Made by a program: the position numbers and the translations under genes. A DNA stretch of 64,000 nucleotides from Thioalkalivibrio sp. ALJ3 (GTDB lineage: Bacteria > Pseudomonadota > Gammaproteobacteria > Ectothiorhodospirales > Ectothiorhodospiraceae). Below the pieces are notes generated by a model. That model had not been told where the DNA came from. It made no database searches and saw only the letters and a program-made list of their open reading frames with translations. The stretch covers positions 1 through 64,000 of the forward strand of contig NZ_KB897908.1 in assembly GCF_000377205.1 (NCBI RefSeq), given 5' to 3'. How positions within the stretch are numbered: position 1 is the stretch's first letter; each line of letters opens with the position of its first letter. Shown in pieces: positions 4,390-32,996 of this stretch.

Positions 4390-4911
4390 GTGAGTGAATC
4401 GCATAACCCATCGCAGCCCGCGGGCAAGGCCCCGCGCCAGGGCGGGCGGGGCAAACGCCCGCGCAGCACGCCCGAACAGCGCGCCCGCCACGCGCGCTCG
4501 GTCGCGCGGCGTCGTGCGATGCAGGCGCTGTACTCCTGGCAGATGACGGCGGGCGAGCCCAAGGACATCCTGGCCGAGTTTCGCGACGACGAGGAACACG
4601 CCAAGGCGGACGCGGAGTACTTCCGCGAAATCCTGATCGGTGTGACTCGCAACCGCGAGGCCCTGGATGCCCGTATGGAACCGTACCTGGGCCGCCCGCT
4701 GGATCAGCTCGACCCGGTCGAGCGGGCCCTGCTGTGGCTGGGCCAGTGGGAGCTCGCCGAGCGCATGGACGTGCCCTATCGCGTGGTGATCAACGAGGCG
4801 GTGGACCTGGCCAAGCGTTTCGGCGCCGAGCAGTCGCACCGCTACATCAATGGGGTGCTGGATCGGCTGTCTGCCGATCTACGCGGCCCCGAGCGCTCGC
4901 TTCAGCGCTGA
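4390..4911 (+). CDS. nusB: Transcription antitermination factor NusB
   Basis: NusB with NusE (S10) binds boxA RNA in rRNA leaders and promotes antitermination. The conserved core starts at RHARSVARRRAMQALYSWQ and includes LDPVERALLWLGQWEL, PYRVVINEAVDLAKRFG and RYINGVLDRL, all typical of the family. The start is uncertain. The frame is open back through the upstream structured repeat, so I use the GTG at 4390 just outside it, giving 173 residues with a 30-residue basic, proline-rich leader. Normally ribH and nusB are tightly linked; here the repeat separates them. thiL follows after 22 bases. Confidence 0.92.
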   Translation: MSESHNPSQPAGKAPRQGGRGKRPRSTPEQRARHARSVARRRAMQALYSWQMTAGEPKDILAEFRDDEEHAKADAEYFREILIGVTRNREALDARMEPYLGRPLDQLDPVERALLWLGQWELAERMDVPYRVVINEAVDLAKRFGAEQSHRYINGVLDRLSADLRGPERSLQR

Positions 4912-4933
4912 TTCACATGGGCCGCCTCTCGCC

Positions 4934-5911
4934 ATGACCGGTCCCGTCTCCGAATTCGATCTGATCCGGCGCTATTTTGCCGAGCCGGCCGGGACTAGCC
5001 CGGACGTGCGCCTGGGCATTGGCGATGACGGGGCACTGCTCGTGGTGCAGGCCGGCCATGAACTGGTTGTCACCGTCGATACCCTGGTCGAGGGCACGCA
5101 TTACTACCCGGACCACCCGCCGGCCAGCCTGGGGCACAAGGCACTGGCAGCCAACCTGAGCGACCTTGCCGCGATGGGGGCCGATCCGCTGGGGGTGGTC
5201 CTGTCCCTGACACTGCCTTCCGTGGACCATGACTGGCTGGCCGCCTTTAGCAGGGGCTTCATGGCGCTGGCCGAACAAACGTCGGTGCCCCTCGTGGGGG
5301 GGGATACCACCCGTGGCCCTGGAGCTGTCAGCGTGACTGCACTGGGCCAGGTCCCGGTCGGGCAGGCCCTGCGTCGCACCGGCGCCCGTCCCGGTGACCG
5401 GCTGGTGGTCAGCGGGGCGCTGGGGGGGGCGGCCGCGGGTTTCGCTTTCGAGCGCCAGCGCCGCGAGCAGGGCCAGTCGTCGCCGGACGAGGCGGCTCCA
5501 AGCTGTGCGCGCCTGTTCTGGCCGAACCCGCGTCTGGCGCTGGGGCGGGGGCTGCGTAACCGAGCGCGGGCCGCGCTCGATATCTCCGACGGGCTGCTGG
5601 CTGATCTGGGCCATCTGTGTGCGGCATCCGGCTGTGGTGCCCGGGTCGACTGGTCGCAGGTGCCCGTCGATCCGTTGCTGGATGGGCAGCCGGAGGAAAC
5701 GGTTCGCGATGGGACGCTCGCCGGTGGTGAGGATTACGAACTGTTGTTTGCCCTGCCGCCCACCGAGCCGCTGGAGTTGCTCAGCCTGAGCGTGCGTACC
5801 TCGCTGACCGTGATCGGCGAGTTCACCAGCGGCAGCGAGATCGAGGTGGTGGATGCCGATGGCGCGCGGCTGGACGTCGCGCGCCGGGGCCACGATCATT
5901 TCGCCGGTTAG
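4934..5911 (+). CDS. thiL: Thiamine-monophosphate kinase
   Basis: ThiL phosphorylates thiamine monophosphate to thiamine pyrophosphate, the active cofactor. The 325-residue product shows the PurM/ThiL-fold signatures: GIGDDGALL, TVDTLVEGTHY, NLSDLAAMGADPLG (Mg/ATP-binding aspartates), VGGDTTRGPG, ALDISDGLLADL and GGEDYELLFALP. Length is normal. The ATG at 4934 starts at the conserved SEFDLIRRYF segment. It lies between nusB and pgpA in an arrangement widely conserved in gammaproteobacteria, consistent with one operon. Confidence 0.97.
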   Translation: MTGPVSEFDLIRRYFAEPAGTSPDVRLGIGDDGALLVVQAGHELVVTVDTLVEGTHYYPDHPPASLGHKALAANLSDLAAMGADPLGVVLSLTLPSVDHDWLAAFSRGFMALAEQTSVPLVGGDTTRGPGAVSVTALGQVPVGQALRRTGARPGDRLVVSGALGGAAAGFAFERQRREQGQSSPDEAAPSCARLFWPNPRLALGRGLRNRARAALDISDGLLADLGHLCAASGCGARVDWSQVPVDPLLDGQPEETVRDGTLAGGEDYELLFALPPTEPLELLSLSVRTSLTVIGEFTSGSEIEVVDADGARLDVARRGHDHFAG

Positions 5912-5952: not shown

Positions 5953-6498
5953 ATGGCCAGGAAGAAGACCGGCGCCGGTGCCGCACCCGCCCAAAGCTCA
6001 AAGCCGAAGATGCCGTCGGCGAAGACGGTATTCACCGACCCGATCCATCTGCTGGCCTTCGGGTTCGGAAGTGGCCTGTCGCGCTGGGCACCGGGGACTA
6101 CCGGGTCGCTCGGCGCGCTGGTGCTCTACTTCGCGATCATGAACTTCCCGGAGTGGGCGTATCTGGCCGTTACCGTGATCGTGGTGATGGCCGGGTTTCA
6201 TATCTGCGGGGAGAGCGCACGCCGGCTGGGTGTGCACGATCATCCCGGTATCGTATGGGACGAATGGGCGGGAATGCTGATTACCCTGGCCTTCGCACCC
6301 GCAGGGCTTGTCTGGATCGTGATCGGATTCCTGCTGTTCCGGCTGTTTGACATCCTCAAGCCGTGGCCCGCCAACTACTTCGATGCCAAGTGGAAGGACG
6401 GGCACGGGATCATGATGGATGACGTGGTCGCCGGGCTTTATGCCGGGTTTGCGCTGGTGATTCTCGCCGCGCTGTTCCAGCAATTCTTCGTGCAGTAG
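5953..6498 (+). CDS. pgpA: Phosphatidylglycerophosphatase A
   Basis: PgpA is an inner-membrane enzyme that dephosphorylates phosphatidylglycerophosphate to phosphatidylglycerol. The 181-residue protein contains the PgpA motifs FGSGLSRWAPGTTGSLGAL, VHDHPGIVWDEWAGM, LFDILKPWP and GIMMDDVVAGLYAG, with several membrane segments. A 20-residue Ala/Lys-rich N-terminus precedes the conserved region. It ends the ribH-nusB-thiL-pgpA cluster and is followed by a pair of inverted REP-like repeats. Confidence 0.96.
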   Translation: MARKKTGAGAAPAQSSKPKMPSAKTVFTDPIHLLAFGFGSGLSRWAPGTTGSLGALVLYFAIMNFPEWAYLAVTVIVVMAGFHICGESARRLGVHDHPGIVWDEWAGMLITLAFAPAGLVWIVIGFLLFRLFDILKPWPANYFDAKWKDGHGIMMDDVVAGLYAGFALVILAALFQQFFVQ

Positions 6499-6523
6499 CA
6501 CGCTTTCCGTTGTAATGCCCCTT

Positions 6524-6602
6524 GATGGGATTCGCTTCGCTCATCCCATCCTACAGCGTGGCACCAACCTCGTAGGATGGGATGAACAACGCGAATCCCA
6601 TC
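6524..6602. repeat. Pair of inverted REP-like units (GTAGGATGGGATGA type)
   Basis: One unit at 6524-6554 reads GATGGGATTCGCTTCGC..., and a second at 6572-6602 is almost its exact reverse complement (GTAGGATGGGATGAACAAC...). Each is an imperfect palindrome and together they form a larger inverted repeat, so the region could fold into a long hairpin after pgpA. The family is the same as at 1218-1327 with a different stem core. Confidence 0.75.
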
Positions 6603-6606
6603 GGCC

Positions 6607-6885
6607 CTAACGCCGGGTAAAAAGGGGCAACTCGTGGCGCCGCGCATTGGCCGCGATGAAGCTTCCGCGCCCGTCCTGTTCGGCGTCCAGACCGGCGCGC
6701 TCGCTCGACTCCTCGCCCAGAATTGTGGCAAAAAACACCTCCAGCTCGCGGCCCTCCACGCGCAGCCCGCCATAGGATCCGCCATCGGTGGCCGGATACC
6801 AGAAAAGACGCGGCTGCCAGTTGCATCCTTGGATCTTCGGATGCTCGTAGAGCGCGATCAGACGCTGTTCGAGGGTGTCGCTCAT
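6607..6885 (-). CDS. Hypothetical protein of 92 residues
   Basis: I do not recognise this protein. It is small, soluble and Arg/Glu-rich, with no signal peptide or membrane segment. Its middle, WQPRLFWYPATDGGSYGG followed by LEVFFATILGE, looks like a compact beta-rich domain. The start at 6885 is preceded on the minus strand by AGAGGTTCCC; the open frame beyond it is likely spurious. It is transcribed away from the ATP-grasp/alpha-E operon, with about 120 bases between the divergent starts. Confidence 0.55.
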   Translation of the reverse strand: MSDTLEQRLIALYEHPKIQGCNWQPRLFWYPATDGGSYGGLRVEGRELEVFFATILGEESSERAGLDAEQDGRGSFIAANARRHELPLFTRR

Positions 6886-7007
6886 GGGAACCTCTGGCGG
6901 GTCAGGGGGACGAAAGACGTACACCACCCGAGTGCGGCTGTTGCTCGTGGTGCCGGAAAAGGCGCTACTGTAGAGCAAACCATTCCCCGCGTCAGAGGAC
7001 CCGACGT

Positions 7008-8456
7008 ATGGCGATTGACTGGAAGCAATACGATCCCAAGCCTTTCTTTGATGAACTGATCGCGAAGCCCGGTAAACCGCGCAAACCTGCCAAACCCCTG
7101 ACCGATTACCTCAGCAGTCTGGACGACACCGAGATCCAGAGCCGCAAGACCGCGGCCGATAGCGCCATCCTCGAAATGGGCATCAGCTTCACGGTCTACA
7201 CCGAAGGCGAGAACATCGACCGTGCCTGGCCATTCGACATCATCCCGAGGGTGATCACCAAAACCGAGTGGGAGCGCGTGACCAGGGGACTTGAGCAGCG
7301 CCTCACGGCGCTCAACATGTTCATCAACGACATCTACAACAAGCAGCAGATCTTCAAAGACAAGGTCGTCCCGCGCTACGTACTGAAGCAGTCCAAGAAC
7401 TTCCGCGAGCAGTGCGTCGGGATCACGCCGCCGCACGGCGTCTGGGCGCACATCTGCGGCACCGATCTGGTGCGCGACGGCAAGGGCGACTTCTACGTGC
7501 TGGAAGACAACCTGCGCGTGCCCTCCGGCGTGTCCTACATGCTGGAAAACCGGCAGGTGACCAAGCGCGTGTTCCCGGAACTGTTCGAGAGCTCGAGCAT
7601 CCTGCCGGTGGATGAGTATCCAACCCAGCTGTTCGACATGCTGGCCTCGATCTCCCCGCGCCCGCAGGACTACCCGGAGATCGCGGTACTGACCCCGGGT
7701 ATCTACAACTCGGCCTATTTCGAGCACTCCTTCCTGGCCCAGCGCATGGGCGCGGAACTGGTCGAGGGCGCGGATCTGGTGGTCGGCGACGATGACTGCG
7801 TCTACATGCGCACCATCGACGGCCTGGAACGGGTCGACGTGATCTATCGCCGGATCGACGACGAATTCCTCGACCCGGAGGTCTTCAACCCGGAGTCAAT
7901 GCTGGGTGTGCCCGGCCTGATGCGGGCCTGGCGCAAGGGCAATGTCGGGCTGGCCAATGCCCCCGGGGCCGGGGTCGCCGACGACAAGGTGATGTACGCC
8001 TTTGTCCCCGAGGTGATCCGCTACTACCTGGACGAGGAGCCGATCCTGCCCAATGTGCCGACCTACCTGTGCGTGAACGAGAAGGACCGCGAGTACGTGC
8101 TTGATCACCTGGACGAGCTGGTGGTGAAGCCGGCCAACGAGTCCGGAGGATACGGGATGCTGGTCGGCCCACACGCGACCAAGAAGCAGCGTGCGGAGTT
8201 TGCCCAGTTGATCCAGAAGGACCCGCGCAACTACATCGCGCAGCCGACCCTGGCCCTGTCCGTTGCGCCGACGCTGTGCGGCGACGATATCGAACCGCGC
8301 CACCTGGATCTGCGGCCGTTCATCCTGCAGGGCGTGCGCACCGACGTGACCGCGGGCGGTCTGACCCGCGTCGCGATGCGCAAGGGCTCGCTGGTGGTCA
8401 ATTCCTCGCAGGGCGGGGGCAGCAAGGACACCTGGATCGTGGACGAGGAGAACTAA
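7008..8456 (+). CDS. Circularly permuted ATP-grasp protein (Anbu-associated)
   Basis: The 482-residue product belongs to the circularly permuted ATP-grasp type 2 family (DUF404/DUF407; Mycobacterium Rv2411c is a member), thought to ligate amines or amino acids to a carboxylate by an unknown reaction. Recognisable parts are [71 protein letters not shown] and the C-terminal [13 protein letters not shown]. The ATG at 7008 is the first codon of the conserved [10 protein letters not shown]. The alpha-E gene begins one base after the stop, so the two are co-translated. The usual proteasome-like partner Anbu is also here, but on the opposite strand. Confidence 0.93.
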
Positions 8457-26453: not shown

Positions 26454-26693
26454 GGCGTTATCCGAGATCTCCCTTGAGTACAGTTTGGACCTGGCGTGGG
26501 CCGAAAGAGTCAGGCCTCGACCGGCACGCAGTCATCCACAATGTAACGATCCAGACCCGGTCGCGTGCCTGCTGTTGAGGGTATGCAGGGTGGTCGGAGG
26601 GTTCATTGGCGGGTCTCCCTCAGCCAATGGTGGCAGAACGCCGCGCATTTCGCCCGTCTTCGGTGGCGGGGTGGCAATGGCCGATGATCCCGC

Positions 26694-26717
26694 TTATATT
26701 AGAACGAACGTTCGTTC
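26694..26717 (+). promoter_or_regulatory. tetR promoter with 16-bp perfect operator
   Basis: TATATT (26694-26699) resembles a -10 box. Immediately after it is the perfect palindrome GAACGAACGTTCGTTC (26702-26717), only 11 bases before the TetR start at 26729. The arrangement fits autorepression by the encoded TetR protein, with the dimer covering the transcription start. Confidence 0.75.
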
Positions 26718-26728
26718 GGTTTTTGCTC

Positions 26729-27367
26729 ATGTCGACGGTTGTGAACAAGAAGCTGCGCGGTGAGGTGTTGCGCCAGCGTGTGCTGGAGACGGCCCTGGAG
26801 CTGTTCAGTACGTGTGGCTACTTCAACACGTCTATCCACGACATCCGTCGAGAGGCGGATGTCTCGATCGGTTCCATCTACCACCACTTTGGCAACAAGG
26901 AGGCGTTGGCCAAGGCGCTCTACGACGAGCTGCTGGAGCGCATGGATGCCGGGCTGCGCGAGGTCATGGAGCGGGAGCGTGGTTGCCGGGCGCGCTGCGA
27001 CGGCATCATCGCCTTCATGTTCCGGGCGGCGACCGACGATCCGCGCACCATGCGCTTCGTGCTCGAGTCCCGTCATCGCGAGTTCCTTCCGGACGAGCCA
27101 CCGGTGTGTTCGTCGCGGCCCTTCATGCGGATGCGCGAGTGCATCGAGCAGGGCATCGCCTCTGGCGAGGTCTGCCCCATCGAGGTTCCGGTCGCCGCCA
27201 CGGCGGCTTTTGGCGGGGCGATCCGGCTGGTCCAACTGCACCTGGATGGTGTCCTCGAAAAACCTCTGTCGCGCTATCTGGCGTCGATGCAGGACGCGGC
27301 CTGGCGGGCGATTGCGAGTGATCCGCCTGCGCCCGCAAAACATCTCATCAAGGAGACCGAAGAATGA
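26729..27367 (+). CDS. TetR-family regulator of the DsrE-like operon
   Basis: The 212-residue product has an N-terminal TetR helix-turn-helix (VLETALELFSTCGYFNTSIHDI, then SIGSIYHHFGNKEALAKALY) and a helical ligand domain with cysteines (C in RGCRARCDG, VCSSRP). I chose the ATG at 26729 because the frame upstream crosses the operator and promoter. It ends with ATGA overlapping the first DsrE-like gene, so it is translationally coupled to it. The signal sensed is unknown; reactive sulfur is a reasonable guess from the context. Confidence 0.88.
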   Translation: MSTVVNKKLRGEVLRQRVLETALELFSTCGYFNTSIHDIRREADVSIGSIYHHFGNKEALAKALYDELLERMDAGLREVMERERGCRARCDGIIAFMFRAATDDPRTMRFVLESRHREFLPDEPPVCSSRPFMRMRECIEQGIASGEVCPIEVPVAATAAFGGAIRLVQLHLDGVLEKPLSRYLASMQDAAWRAIASDPPAPAKHLIKETEE

Positions 27368-27852
27368 AGCTGCTGGCCGTTCTTTACCTGACCCTGACGC
27401 TGTCCGTGGTGTCACTGTCCGCACAGGCGGAACCGACTGATACCCGGGCCCTGGAAGGGGTCGATCAGGGCCGGGTCGTGTTCGACCTGAACAACAACGA
27501 CCCCGAACTGCTCGCGCTGTACCTGATGGTGATCCGCGAGACCTTCGAGGATCTGACCGATCAGGGCGTCGAGCCCGACATGATCCTCGCCTTTCGCGGT
27601 CGCGCGGTGACCATGATCGGCGAGGACCGCGAGCGCTTCGAGTTGACCGAGTTCGATCACCTGGACGCGATCGAGGGACATATCGCCGCGCTGAAGGGGA
27701 AGGGCGTACGGATGGAGTCCTGTTCCGTGGCCACACGGCTGTTCGGTGTCGATCACGGCGAACTGCTGCCCGGCATCGAGCCTGTGCGCAATACCTTCGT
27801 CTCGCTGACCGGTTACCAGGCCCAGAGCTACGCGGTGATCCCGATCTACTGA
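27364..27852 (+). CDS. Periplasmic DsrE-like protein, copy 1
   Basis: This 162-residue protein has a signal peptide (LTLTLSVVSLSAQAEP) and a DsrE/DsrF-like domain: GRVVFDLNNNDPELLALYL, MILAFRGRAVTMIG, a single cysteine in MESCSVATRLFGVD, and PGIEPVRNTFVSLTGYQAQ. DsrE-like proteins carry sulfur as cysteine persulfide in the cytoplasm; secreted members are less understood. The start overlaps the TetR stop by four bases, and a paralogue follows at 27922. Confidence 0.85.
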   Translation: MKLLAVLYLTLTLSVVSLSAQAEPTDTRALEGVDQGRVVFDLNNNDPELLALYLMVIRETFEDLTDQGVEPDMILAFRGRAVTMIGEDRERFELTEFDHLDAIEGHIAALKGKGVRMESCSVATRLFGVDHGELLPGIEPVRNTFVSLTGYQAQSYAVIPIY

Positions 27853-27921
27853 GCCGCGCACTGCGGCAATATCGGGTCCGAAAACAAGAAAAGGACTCCA
27901 ACCCCAAAGGAGACATAGCTG

Positions 27922-28422
27922 ATGCGAAACCGAATCATGATCCTGCTGCTGGCCCTGCTGCTCCCGCTCGGGCTGATCTCGAAGGCGAATGCAGAGGGTC
28001 TGGACAACCGCGAGGCCACCCAGGGCATCGAGACCATGCGCGCGGTCTACGACATCCGCAAGTCCGACCCCGACGTGATGCTGGCCTACCTGCGCGGCAT
28101 CGCCACCAACCACGAGAACCTGGTCAAGGAAGGCGTGGAACCGGACCTGCGCATGGTGTTTATCGCCGAGGCGGTCAAGTTCATCACCACCGACCCGGAG
28201 CCCGAGATCGCGATGGACCATGGCGACACGCTGGGGGAGATCGCGAAGGCTGTTGAGCGTCTGGACGAGTTGGGCGTGCGTATGGAGGTTTGTGCCGCGG
28301 CGACGCGTGCCTATGGAGTGGACAACGACAAAGTCCTGGATGCGATCAAACCGGTGCGCAGCGGCTTCATCGCTGTCATGGGCTACCAGAACCAGGGTTA
28401 CGCACTGGTCCCGGTCTACTGA
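27922..28422 (+). CDS. Periplasmic DsrE-like protein, copy 2
   Basis: This 166-residue paralogue of the preceding gene has a signal peptide (ILLLALLLPLGLISKANA), GIETMRAVYDIRKSDPDVML, LRMVFIAEAVKFI, the matching single cysteine in MEVCAAATRAYGVD, and a YALVPVY ending equivalent to YAVIPIY in copy 1. A strong AAAGGAGACATAGCTG precedes the ATG. The pair probably forms a hetero-oligomer, as DsrE-family proteins often do. That the cysteine is kept in both copies argues for a persulfide or thiol role. Confidence 0.85.
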   Translation: MRNRIMILLLALLLPLGLISKANAEGLDNREATQGIETMRAVYDIRKSDPDVMLAYLRGIATNHENLVKEGVEPDLRMVFIAEAVKFITTDPEPEIAMDHGDTLGEIAKAVERLDELGVRMEVCAAATRAYGVDNDKVLDAIKPVRSGFIAVMGYQNQGYALVPVY

Positions 28423-28937: not shown

Positions 28938-30254
28938 ATGCGCGCACATTGGCTGGTTTTGATGCTGTTCGCGGTGGGCGGTGTGGCCCATGGCGAAGAA
29001 ATCTCTGCGGATGCGCTGGTCGATGATGCGCGGTCGGCGACCAGCGAGATCGATCGCGAAGGGGTGGCAAATCTCATCACGAACGAACCAGATCACGTTC
29101 TGATTGATGTGCGCTCTCACCAGGAGATCGAGATGGGTGGCGGGCAGATTCGTTCGCATCTCACACTAAACATTCCGCGTGGCGAACTGGAGTTTCGCAT
29201 CGCGGGCGAGGTGTCCGAAAAAGACACGCCGATCGTCGTCTACAGCGAGGAGAATCGGCGTTCCGCGCTGGCGGCTCAGACGCTCCAGAGCATGGGCTAT
29301 ACCAACGTGCACAACTACGCGGGCGGCTTCCGCGAATGGCAGGAAGCCGACGGGCCCCTGTACGTGCTCGACAAGGCACTGGATTCCTTCCTCTACGCCA
29401 TGCCCCAGGAGGTGACCGATGGCGTGTGGTCCGCGATCGGTGCCACCCAGCCTTCGACCTACGAGAACTCGGGCCATAACAACAACCTGTCGTTCATCAT
29501 CACCGACGACGGCGTGGTGGTCATGAACGCCGGCGACAACTACCTGCTGGCCCAGTCCCTGCACGAGGAGATCAAGAAGCTCACTGACCAGCCGGTGAAG
29601 TACGTGGTGCTGGAAAACGCCCAGGGGCACGCGATGCTCGGCATGACCTACTGGCAGGAGCAGGGCGCCACCGTGATCGCGCACGAGGACGCCGCGCGCG
29701 AGATCGAGCAGAACGGCCAGCGCAGTCTGGAGGGCGCGCCGAACCGCACCCGCGACAAGGCGTTTCTGACCGAGCTCGGCACGCCGGACAAGATCTTCGA
29801 GGATCGCGTCGAGCTGGACATGGGCGGCGAGACCATCGAGGTGCTCTTTCTCGGCCCCGCGCATGCCCCGGGGGATATCGCCCTGTGGGCGCCGGATCGC
29901 AAGACGCTGATCACCGGCGACCTCGCCTTCCACGAGCGCATGCTGCCGATCTTCGAATATACCGACACCGCCGGCTGGATCGAGACCTGGGACAAGCTGG
30001 AGGCGATCGAGGCCGACTACATCATCCCGGGCCACGGTGGTCCGGTGACCGACTTTGAGCAGCTGCGCAAGTACACCCGGGACTACCTCGTCTTCCTGCG
30101 CGGGGAGGTGCAGGAGATCATCGACACCGGCGGCACGCTGAACGACGCTTACAACATTGACCAGTCGGCCTACCGCCACCTGGACACCTACGACGAGCTC
30201 CACCGCCAAAACGCCGGGCGCGTCTTCCGCGCGATGGAGTTCGAGGGCTTCTGA
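28938..30254 (+). CDS. Secreted rhodanese / metallo-beta-lactamase fusion with altered active sites
   Basis: The 438-residue product has a signal peptide (LVLMLFAVGGVAHG), a rhodanese domain (about 40-135) and a metallo-beta-lactamase domain (about 165-400). The rhodanese active-site loop is YSEENRRSAL, with Ser where Cys is expected. In the MBL domain the HxHxDH motif is replaced by NxQxHA (LENAQGHAMLG). The later ligands are kept: GPAHAPGD, ITGDLAF and IPGHGG. The domain order is the reverse of common MBL-rhodanese persulfide dioxygenases. It may be a binding or regulatory protein, or use a different metal geometry. The ATG at 28938 follows TAGGTGGATAAC. Confidence 0.85.
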   Translation: MRAHWLVLMLFAVGGVAHGEEISADALVDDARSATSEIDREGVANLITNEPDHVLIDVRSHQEIEMGGGQIRSHLTLNIPRGELEFRIAGEVSEKDTPIVVYSEENRRSALAAQTLQSMGYTNVHNYAGGFREWQEADGPLYVLDKALDSFLYAMPQEVTDGVWSAIGATQPSTYENSGHNNNLSFIITDDGVVVMNAGDNYLLAQSLHEEIKKLTDQPVKYVVLENAQGHAMLGMTYWQEQGATVIAHEDAAREIEQNGQRSLEGAPNRTRDKAFLTELGTPDKIFEDRVELDMGGETIEVLFLGPAHAPGDIALWAPDRKTLITGDLAFHERMLPIFEYTDTAGWIETWDKLEAIEADYIIPGHGGPVTDFEQLRKYTRDYLVFLRGEVQEIIDTGGTLNDAYNIDQSAYRHLDTYDELHRQNAGRVFRAMEFEGF

Positions 30255-32418: not shown

Positions 32419-32588
32419 TAAGTGAGGGTTCCCGTCATCGCGTGCTCCATCCTTTGATAAGTGTCTGTTAGAATTAAAGAAATAAGGATGCTACCCAGGC
32501 ACCCGAAAAAAGGCAAATCCATGTGAATCGTGGCATTTTTAGTGTGCCTAATCCCGATTTTTTCGATCCCGAGTGCAAAGGAGCCTTC

Positions 32589-32996
32589 ATGGCGAACGAG
32601 ACGAACGACCCGCAACTGGAAATCAGCGTCAGCTCGGCGCGCGAACTGGTGGATATCGGCCTGGCCGTGTTGCTGGATATCCGCCAGCCCTTCGAGCTGG
32701 AGTTGGAGGGCGAGGTGGAAGGTGCGGTGTCGGTGCCGCTGTTCCGGCTGAAGCAGTTGCTGGGGCGGCAGATCTCGGAGGAAGAGCAGGAGTTGCTGGA
32801 CGCGGACGAACCGGATGATCGCGACTTTCAGCACTTCCTCTCGCTGATCAATCGCTACCACGTGACGCAGGATCAGATCCTGCTGTGCCTGTGCAACAGC
32901 GGTCGCCGCAGCCTGCGCGCCGCCGAACTGCTGCGGGAGCTGGGCTATGCACGCTGTCTCTCGGTACGGGAGGGCTTTCGCGGCTGGAAAGACTAG
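32589..32996 (+). CDS. Cytoplasmic rhodanese-like sulfurtransferase
   Basis: The 135-residue single-domain rhodanese has LLDIRQPFELELEGEVEGA, VPLFRLKQL, the catalytic loop LCLCNSGRRSLRAAELL (Cys in CNSGRRS) and SVREGFRGW at the end. A 35-residue insert (SEEEQELLDADEPDDRDFQH) separates strand and active site. It can carry a persulfide on Cys. AAAGGAGCCTTC precedes the ATG at 32589; an upstream in-frame GTG at 32523 is less likely. It contrasts with the Cys-less rhodanese at 28938. Confidence 0.88.
   Translation: MANETNDPQLEISVSSARELVDIGLAVLLDIRQPFELELEGEVEGAVSVPLFRLKQLLGRQISEEEQELLDADEPDDRDFQHFLSLINRYHVTQDQILLCLCNSGRRSLRAAELLRELGYARCLSVREGFRGWKD

Follow-up and report, generated by a model that had tools for sequence, protein, structure and literature searches.

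The question raised by this locus is whether a protein that lacks the hallmark active-site residues of both of its domains is a decaying enzyme or one that has been remodeled for a different function. The gene (28938..30254, + strand, ATG to TGA) lies in a 64,000-nucleotide stretch of DNA, the window analyzed here, from Thioalkalivibrio sp. ALJ3, a sulfur-oxidizing bacterium of soda lakes, and encodes a 438 amino acid fusion of a rhodanese with a variant MBL domain (xMBL); all features of this gene given below are on the same strand. Residues 1-20 (MRAHWLVLMLFAVGGVAHGE; 28938..28997) resemble a Sec-type signal peptide by inspection; the hydrophobic leader MRAHWLVLMLFAVGGVAHG fits the secretion originally proposed, again by inspection only, and its residues have low pLDDT in the AlphaFold2 model. 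The rhodanese domain (residues 45-137, 29070..29348) is recognized by Pfam PF00581 with 54.7 bits, above the gathering score of 22.2. Its active loop SEENRR (residues 103-108, 29244..29261, within VVYSEENRRS) retains Arg108 and has Ser103 at the position expected for the active-site Cys of a catalytic rhodanese. The MBL domain (residues ~150-438, 29385..30251) is assigned as SoxH-like from its fold and a match to TIGR04559 below that model's cut-off, and Pfam detects a partial Lactamase_B at residues 241-366. The HxHxDH motif, the recognized hallmark of MBL-superfamily proteins (PMC7785958), is replaced by ENAQGHA (residues 226-232, 29613..29633), such that Asn227, Gln229, His231 and Ala232 occupy the positions of H116, H118, D120 and H121. 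The downstream ligands are intact: GPAH with His309 (29862..29864), GD with Asp328 (29919..29921) and GHG with His366 (30033..30035), the equivalents of His196, residue 221 and His263, respectively. An HNNN motif (residues 180-183, 29475..29486) is present in nearly all proteins with the NxQxHA motif, and its Asn183 is found in canonical paralogues as well.

The reading frame and both altered motifs reported in the initial annotation are genuine. The AlphaFold2 model resolves two domains with good confidence (mean pLDDT 84.8, with the MBL core mostly >90) and shows the alpha-beta-beta-alpha fold of the MBL superfamily, and all top Foldseek matches among solved structures are MBL-fold proteins. 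The same frame is present in orthologues with 74-92% identity, the closest of which come from Tv. thiocyanoxidans ARh2 and strain ALJ21 (91-92%). Because the MBL core is intact in the model and the frame is common to the orthologues, neither a frameshift nor an assembly error can account for the gene; a sequencing error is likewise ruled out by the orthologues, which share both the frame and the motifs.

The alignments drew on named genomes, on family, class and phylum samples, and on one order and one class of another proteobacterial class; the profile matched 101 distinct sequences, which form the motif census. NxQxHA together with His, Asp and His at positions 196, 221 and 263 was found in 75 intact sequences, and one further NxQxHA sequence is truncated at a contig end. 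The remainder includes near variants (NxQxHS in 2, NxDxHA and NxQxHY in 1 each) and other motifs (GxQxHR in 10, NxQxHR in 1 and canonical HxHxDH in 10). In other words, 75 of the 79 distinct intact close relatives share NxQxHA, and the remaining 4 each differ by a single residue. HxHxDH is thus absent from the entire subfamily, and the equivalents of His196, Asp221 and His263 are invariant in all intact members. These three residues, along with Gln118 and His120, are also retained in the related QxH groups (GxQxHR, NxQxHR and NxQxHY); Gln at 118 is not absolutely required because one member (L077) has Asp there. On the tree of MBL domains, which has several long branches, the QxH proteins cluster with 95/96 support, and the HxHxDH paralogues lie outside this group. 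Given that the motif is widespread across the members and that the QxH proteins group together, the NxQxHA change is ancient and maintained, and the dN/dS of 0.05 for the MBL domain within the clade that has Ser in the rhodanese loop indicates strong purifying selection. NxQxHA thus marks an as yet unnamed subfamily of SoxH-like proteins that originated by an ancient replacement; it is not a symptom of a decaying gene. The proposal that the altered MBL motif points to a changed function instead of decay has good support because NxQxHA is kept throughout this subfamily, and the scenario in which the homologues are canonical and this copy alone is degenerate does not hold for the MBL domain.

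The NxQxHA domain occurs in several contexts, namely, fused to a rhodanese, fused to a dienelactone hydrolase, as a stand-alone secreted protein and as a tandem pair. In L092:5596-7401, L105:1340-3133 and L026:1608-3407, an N-terminal dienelactone-hydrolase-type domain takes the place of the rhodanese (for L026, the assignment is by sequence resemblance only). In L025, the entire rhodanese-xMBL gene is duplicated in tandem (4505-5830 and 5968-7269) and followed by a gene for a thioredoxin-like protein. In Thiothrix lacustris (L022:4927-7242), a single chain comprises a canonical HYHADH SoxH-like MBL, a rhodanese and an NxQxHA MBL; this gene directly follows soxYZ-type genes and has a DsrE-like gene 36 bp downstream. 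The source genome encodes four more SoxH-like MBLs, two with canonical motifs (L003, HYHADH; L005, HSHGDH) and two with QxHR motifs (L002 and L004). A second widespread MBL group, in which GxQxHR replaces HxHxDH, is represented in the source genome by L116:5431-6423 and elsewhere by L082-L085, L125 and L145-L148; in the class sample, this group is mostly found in genomes that also carry soxB.

The history of the rhodanese domain is different. Among the 43 full-length relatives, loop residue 103 is Cys in 36, Ser in 6 and Asp in 1, so that, for this domain, the homologues are mostly canonical and the original proposal is largely refuted. The rhodanese tree requires a minimum of three independent changes at this position. 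The subclade to which the window belongs, that of Tv. thiocyanoxidans, has Ser throughout (AGC in 5 of 5 genomes; TGC or TGT in relatives with Cys); a second, isolated Ser comes from another proteobacterial class (L124), and the Asp from a Gallionellales genome (L020). The Cys loss is recent and lineage-specific, and the MBL change is ancestral; the two losses, originally presented as one double event, therefore were not coordinated. Trp83 and Gly104 are gone in all three Cys-less lineages (L010/L030-L032, L124 and L020), Trp83 being absent from a few Cys-bearing sequences as well, whereas Asp57, Arg59 and Arg108 of the loop do not vary. This pattern is the one expected if sulfur transfer was lost and, as we infer, a role in binding an anion or a partner was kept. 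The loss of the Cys, the adjacent Gly and Trp83 in this subclade, along with the absence of the fusion gene from some Thioalkalivibrio genomes, could alternatively mean that the gene is degenerating in this lineage. However, the frame is intact, Ser is shared by all five genomes, the MBL motif is an ancestral one, and in the Ser clade both domains evolve under constraint similar to that in the Cys clades (for the rhodanese, dN/dS is 0.11 against 0.08 and 0.13, and for the MBL it is the 0.05 given above); decay is thus largely refuted and appears extremely improbable. Compensation for the missing Cys by the Cys-containing rhodanese encoded at 32523-32996 seems unlikely: this protein should be cytoplasmic because it has no evident signal peptide. 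It is a single-domain rhodanese with a CNSGRR loop, found near the fusion gene only at Ser-clade loci among those examined.

What the remodeled MBL site might do is suggested by an alignment with the subclass B2 enzyme Sfh-I, in which Asn227, Gln229, His231, Asp328 and His366 fall on N116, H118, D120, C221 and H263, and His309 falls on H196. The B2 lactamases are mono-zinc enzymes with the metal in the 120/221/263 site and Asn at 116; therefore, a single metal at His231, Asp328 and His366 is the most economical reading for the fusion protein. The site-1 ligands H116 and H118 would have been replaced by Asn and Gln in a functional but remodeled SoxH-like MBL, which may bind one metal at the predicted site 2 through His231, Asp328 and His366, in a pocket probably lined by His309 and Gln229. 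This site was derived from alignments, the AlphaFold2 model being ligand-free.

The main alternative, which we consider possible but not probable, is that the subfamily consists of conserved pseudoenzymes, in which a metal-free MBL serves as a scaffold, senses a ligand or pairs with a canonical SoxH-like MBL that is active. The HxHxDH hallmark is indeed mostly lost, and there are precedents in CPSF100 (the partner of CPSF73), INTS9 and the second domain of tRNase Z (PMC4819959; PMC7785958). Potential active partners are available as well: Thiothrix joins an NxQxHA MBL to a canonical one in the same chain, and the source genome encodes the canonical paralogues L003 and L005. Nevertheless, the invariance of H196, D221, H263 and the new His120 despite deep divergence exceeds the needs of a scaffold, and canonical partners are found also in genomes that lack the NxQxHA protein.

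A connection with sulfur oxidation comes from gene co-occurrence. In the class sample of 369 genomes, soxB is present in 25 of the 26 carriers of the NxQxHA type compared to 126 of the 343 non-carriers (Fisher p ~1e-9, a value that ignores kinship, the carriers being related to varying degrees though spanning many family codes; the 26 include one partial match, G154, in which the motif was not read). The related QxHR proteins follow the same trend, with soxB in 13 of 15 genomes of this sample, and the NxQxHA protein is absent from many soxB genomes. Dependence of this association on the absence of SoxCD was not supported: soxC is present in 10 of the 25 soxB-positive carriers, a larger share than among soxB-positive non-carriers. 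Direct linkage was observed in some loci, with sox genes adjoining the NxQxHA gene in L018, L023 and L022 (Thiothrix) and located ~5 kb away in L127; many other xMBL loci have no sulfur gene nearby.

In the window and in close Thioalkalivibrio relatives, the fusion gene has as neighbors genes for secreted DsrE-like proteins with a conserved Cys, and DsrE-like genes also accompany the stand-alone NxQxHA form in two genomes (G203 and G406). The two such genes in the window, both on the + strand, are P0002 (27364..27852; conserved Cys120; Pfam DsrE 22.4 bits, just below the cut-off) and P0003 (27922..28422; DsrE 41.9 bits), each assigned with the aid of an alignment. They are preceded by a conserved neighbor, a gene for a TetR-family regulator (26606..27367, +), which shares 4 bases (ATGA) with P0002. 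Related Thioalkalivibrio have these three genes (26606-28422) as a conserved block next to the fusion gene too, though the side on which the block lies differs. An operon that includes the fusion gene and the DsrE-like genes is not supported: although the neighborhood recurs, its genes are not always arranged alike, and 515 bp separate the end of the DsrE-like pair from the fusion gene downstream, with a weak terminator-like hairpin within the gap. A search of this 515-bp gap for a sigma-70-type promoter yielded no match.

Taken with the periplasmic location, the soxB association and the DsrE-like neighbors point to periplasmic sulfane sulfur. The Thiothrix chain agrees with this, as does a parallel from Pseudomonas, where a rhodanese, a SoxYZ-like and a SoxH-like protein are encoded together in the ped clusters (PMC12997753). 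The reading that we prefer, tentatively and at slightly less than an even chance, is that the fusion protein is a periplasmic, Sox-linked accessory protein for sulfur handling with a remodeled single-metal MBL, and that its rhodanese is a non-transferring binding domain in this subclade. In most orthologues, the N-terminal rhodanese retains the active Cys and would pass sulfane sulfur to the vicinity of the MBL pocket or take it up from there; secreted carriers of the DsrE-like or SoxYZ type are its probable exchange partners. With Ser in place of Cys, the rhodanese of the Tv. thiocyanoxidans subclade should no longer carry a persulfide but should still bind an anionic or protein partner, Arg108, Asp57 and Arg59 being kept. 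Metal binding and its stoichiometry, the substrate, the direction of sulfur transfer and the identity of the partner are features that we infer for the fusion protein. A bolder version, that the subfamily comprises active enzymes with an undescribed His120-Asp221-His263 single-metal site that catalyze an unrecognized step of the periplasmic Sox pathway on sulfane sulfur, either inorganic or bound to protein, with a rhodanese module able to change repeatedly from a sulfur carrier into a non-covalent binding domain, appears doubtful.

A different assignment is suggested by the best NCBIfam match of the fusion protein, TIGR04559 (SoxH_rel_PQQ_2): like the TIGR04558/TIGR04559 proteins, it could be a quinoprotein-relay factor involved in the maturation or protection of a PQQ dehydrogenase. 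The Pseudomonas ped clusters, where rhodanese, SoxYZ-like and SoxH-like proteins co-occur with PQQ alcohol dehydrogenases (PMC12997753), fit such a role. However, the score is 169.4 bits against a curated cut-off of 280, no quinoprotein gene is found among the annotated neighbors of the loci examined, and the strong association is with soxB instead, so we consider this role quite improbable.

A literature search, mostly outside subscription journals, found no published description of the fusion protein or of the NxQxHA motif, and no assigned function for SoxH-like proteins was found in the literature. A large, strictly conserved secreted subfamily in which all four HxHxDH positions are replaced and the remaining metal site is kept can be considered a clean natural case of active-site remodeling, and the soxB association suggests that sulfur oxidation has a component yet to be assigned. 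Furthermore, the rhodanese Cys has been lost more than once, independently, in fusions that are conserved in other respects, which provides a comparison by which sulfur transfer could be told apart from binding.

Among known systems, the persulfide dioxygenase (PDO)-rhodanese fusions BpPRF and CstB similarly combine a rhodanese and an MBL in one protein of sulfur metabolism. The domain order is indeed reversed relative to BpPRF, where the rhodanese is C-terminal, as the initial annotation stated, but it is not new: N-terminal rhodaneses are already known from the Rho-PDO proteins of cable bacteria and Desulfobulbales (PMC13047784), which moreover have the same Gln at 118 in a degenerate HxQADY motif. 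Along with the rhodanese-MBL combination in sulfur oxidizers and the retention of His309 and Asp328 of the PDO triad, this likeness allows for a rhodanese-PDO fusion that, despite its altered motif, would still use iron to oxidize persulfide to sulfite. The PDOs, however, rely on a His-His-Asp iron site, His71, His146 and Asp163 in PaPDO, which correspond to the first His of the motif, H196 and D221 (PMC12856154). That first His is Asn in every close member (Asn227 in the fusion protein), making PDO chemistry unlikely and arguing against PDO/ETHE1 membership; by contrast, the cable-bacterial proteins retain it along with Asp120 and are described as PDO-like, whereas the fusion protein, with NxQGHA, is SoxH-like. 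Besides, the top profile matches are SoxH-like proteins and B1/B2 lactamases, with no PDO or ETHE1 among the 25 best listed, and glutathione persulfide is ill-suited to the periplasmic location of a secreted protein. We regard this assignment as improbable.

SoxH, or quinoprotein relay system zinc metallohydrolase 2 (TIGR04559), is likewise a secreted MBL, similar in length and in the C-terminal region, which aligns with the MBL of the fusion over model positions 5-283 of 283 and, like the fusion protein, is linked to sulfur or SoxYZ-like systems. The canonical paralogues, such as L003 and the N-terminal domain of the Thiothrix chain, differ in having HYHADH where the fusion protein has NxQxHA. 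The subclass B2 enzymes (CphA and Sfh-I) resemble it in the fold match, in Asn at 116 and in the single-metal site at 120/221/263; of the B2 set of Asn116 with Asp120, Cys221 and His263, however, only the Asn and His263 are present, the fusion protein having His for D120, Asp for C221 and, in addition, Gln for H118, and the B2 profile score is 65.3 bits, below the curated cut-off of 240. The nearest solved fold, and the best solved sequence match of the MBL domain, is an MBL-superfamily protein of Burkholderia cenocepacia (PDB 8d2z), in which HYH at 116-118 is intact, whereas 120-121 is V-R (HYHAVR) and Arg stands in place of H263. The losses in that protein fall in the other half of the site, a mirror image of the NxQxHA pattern.
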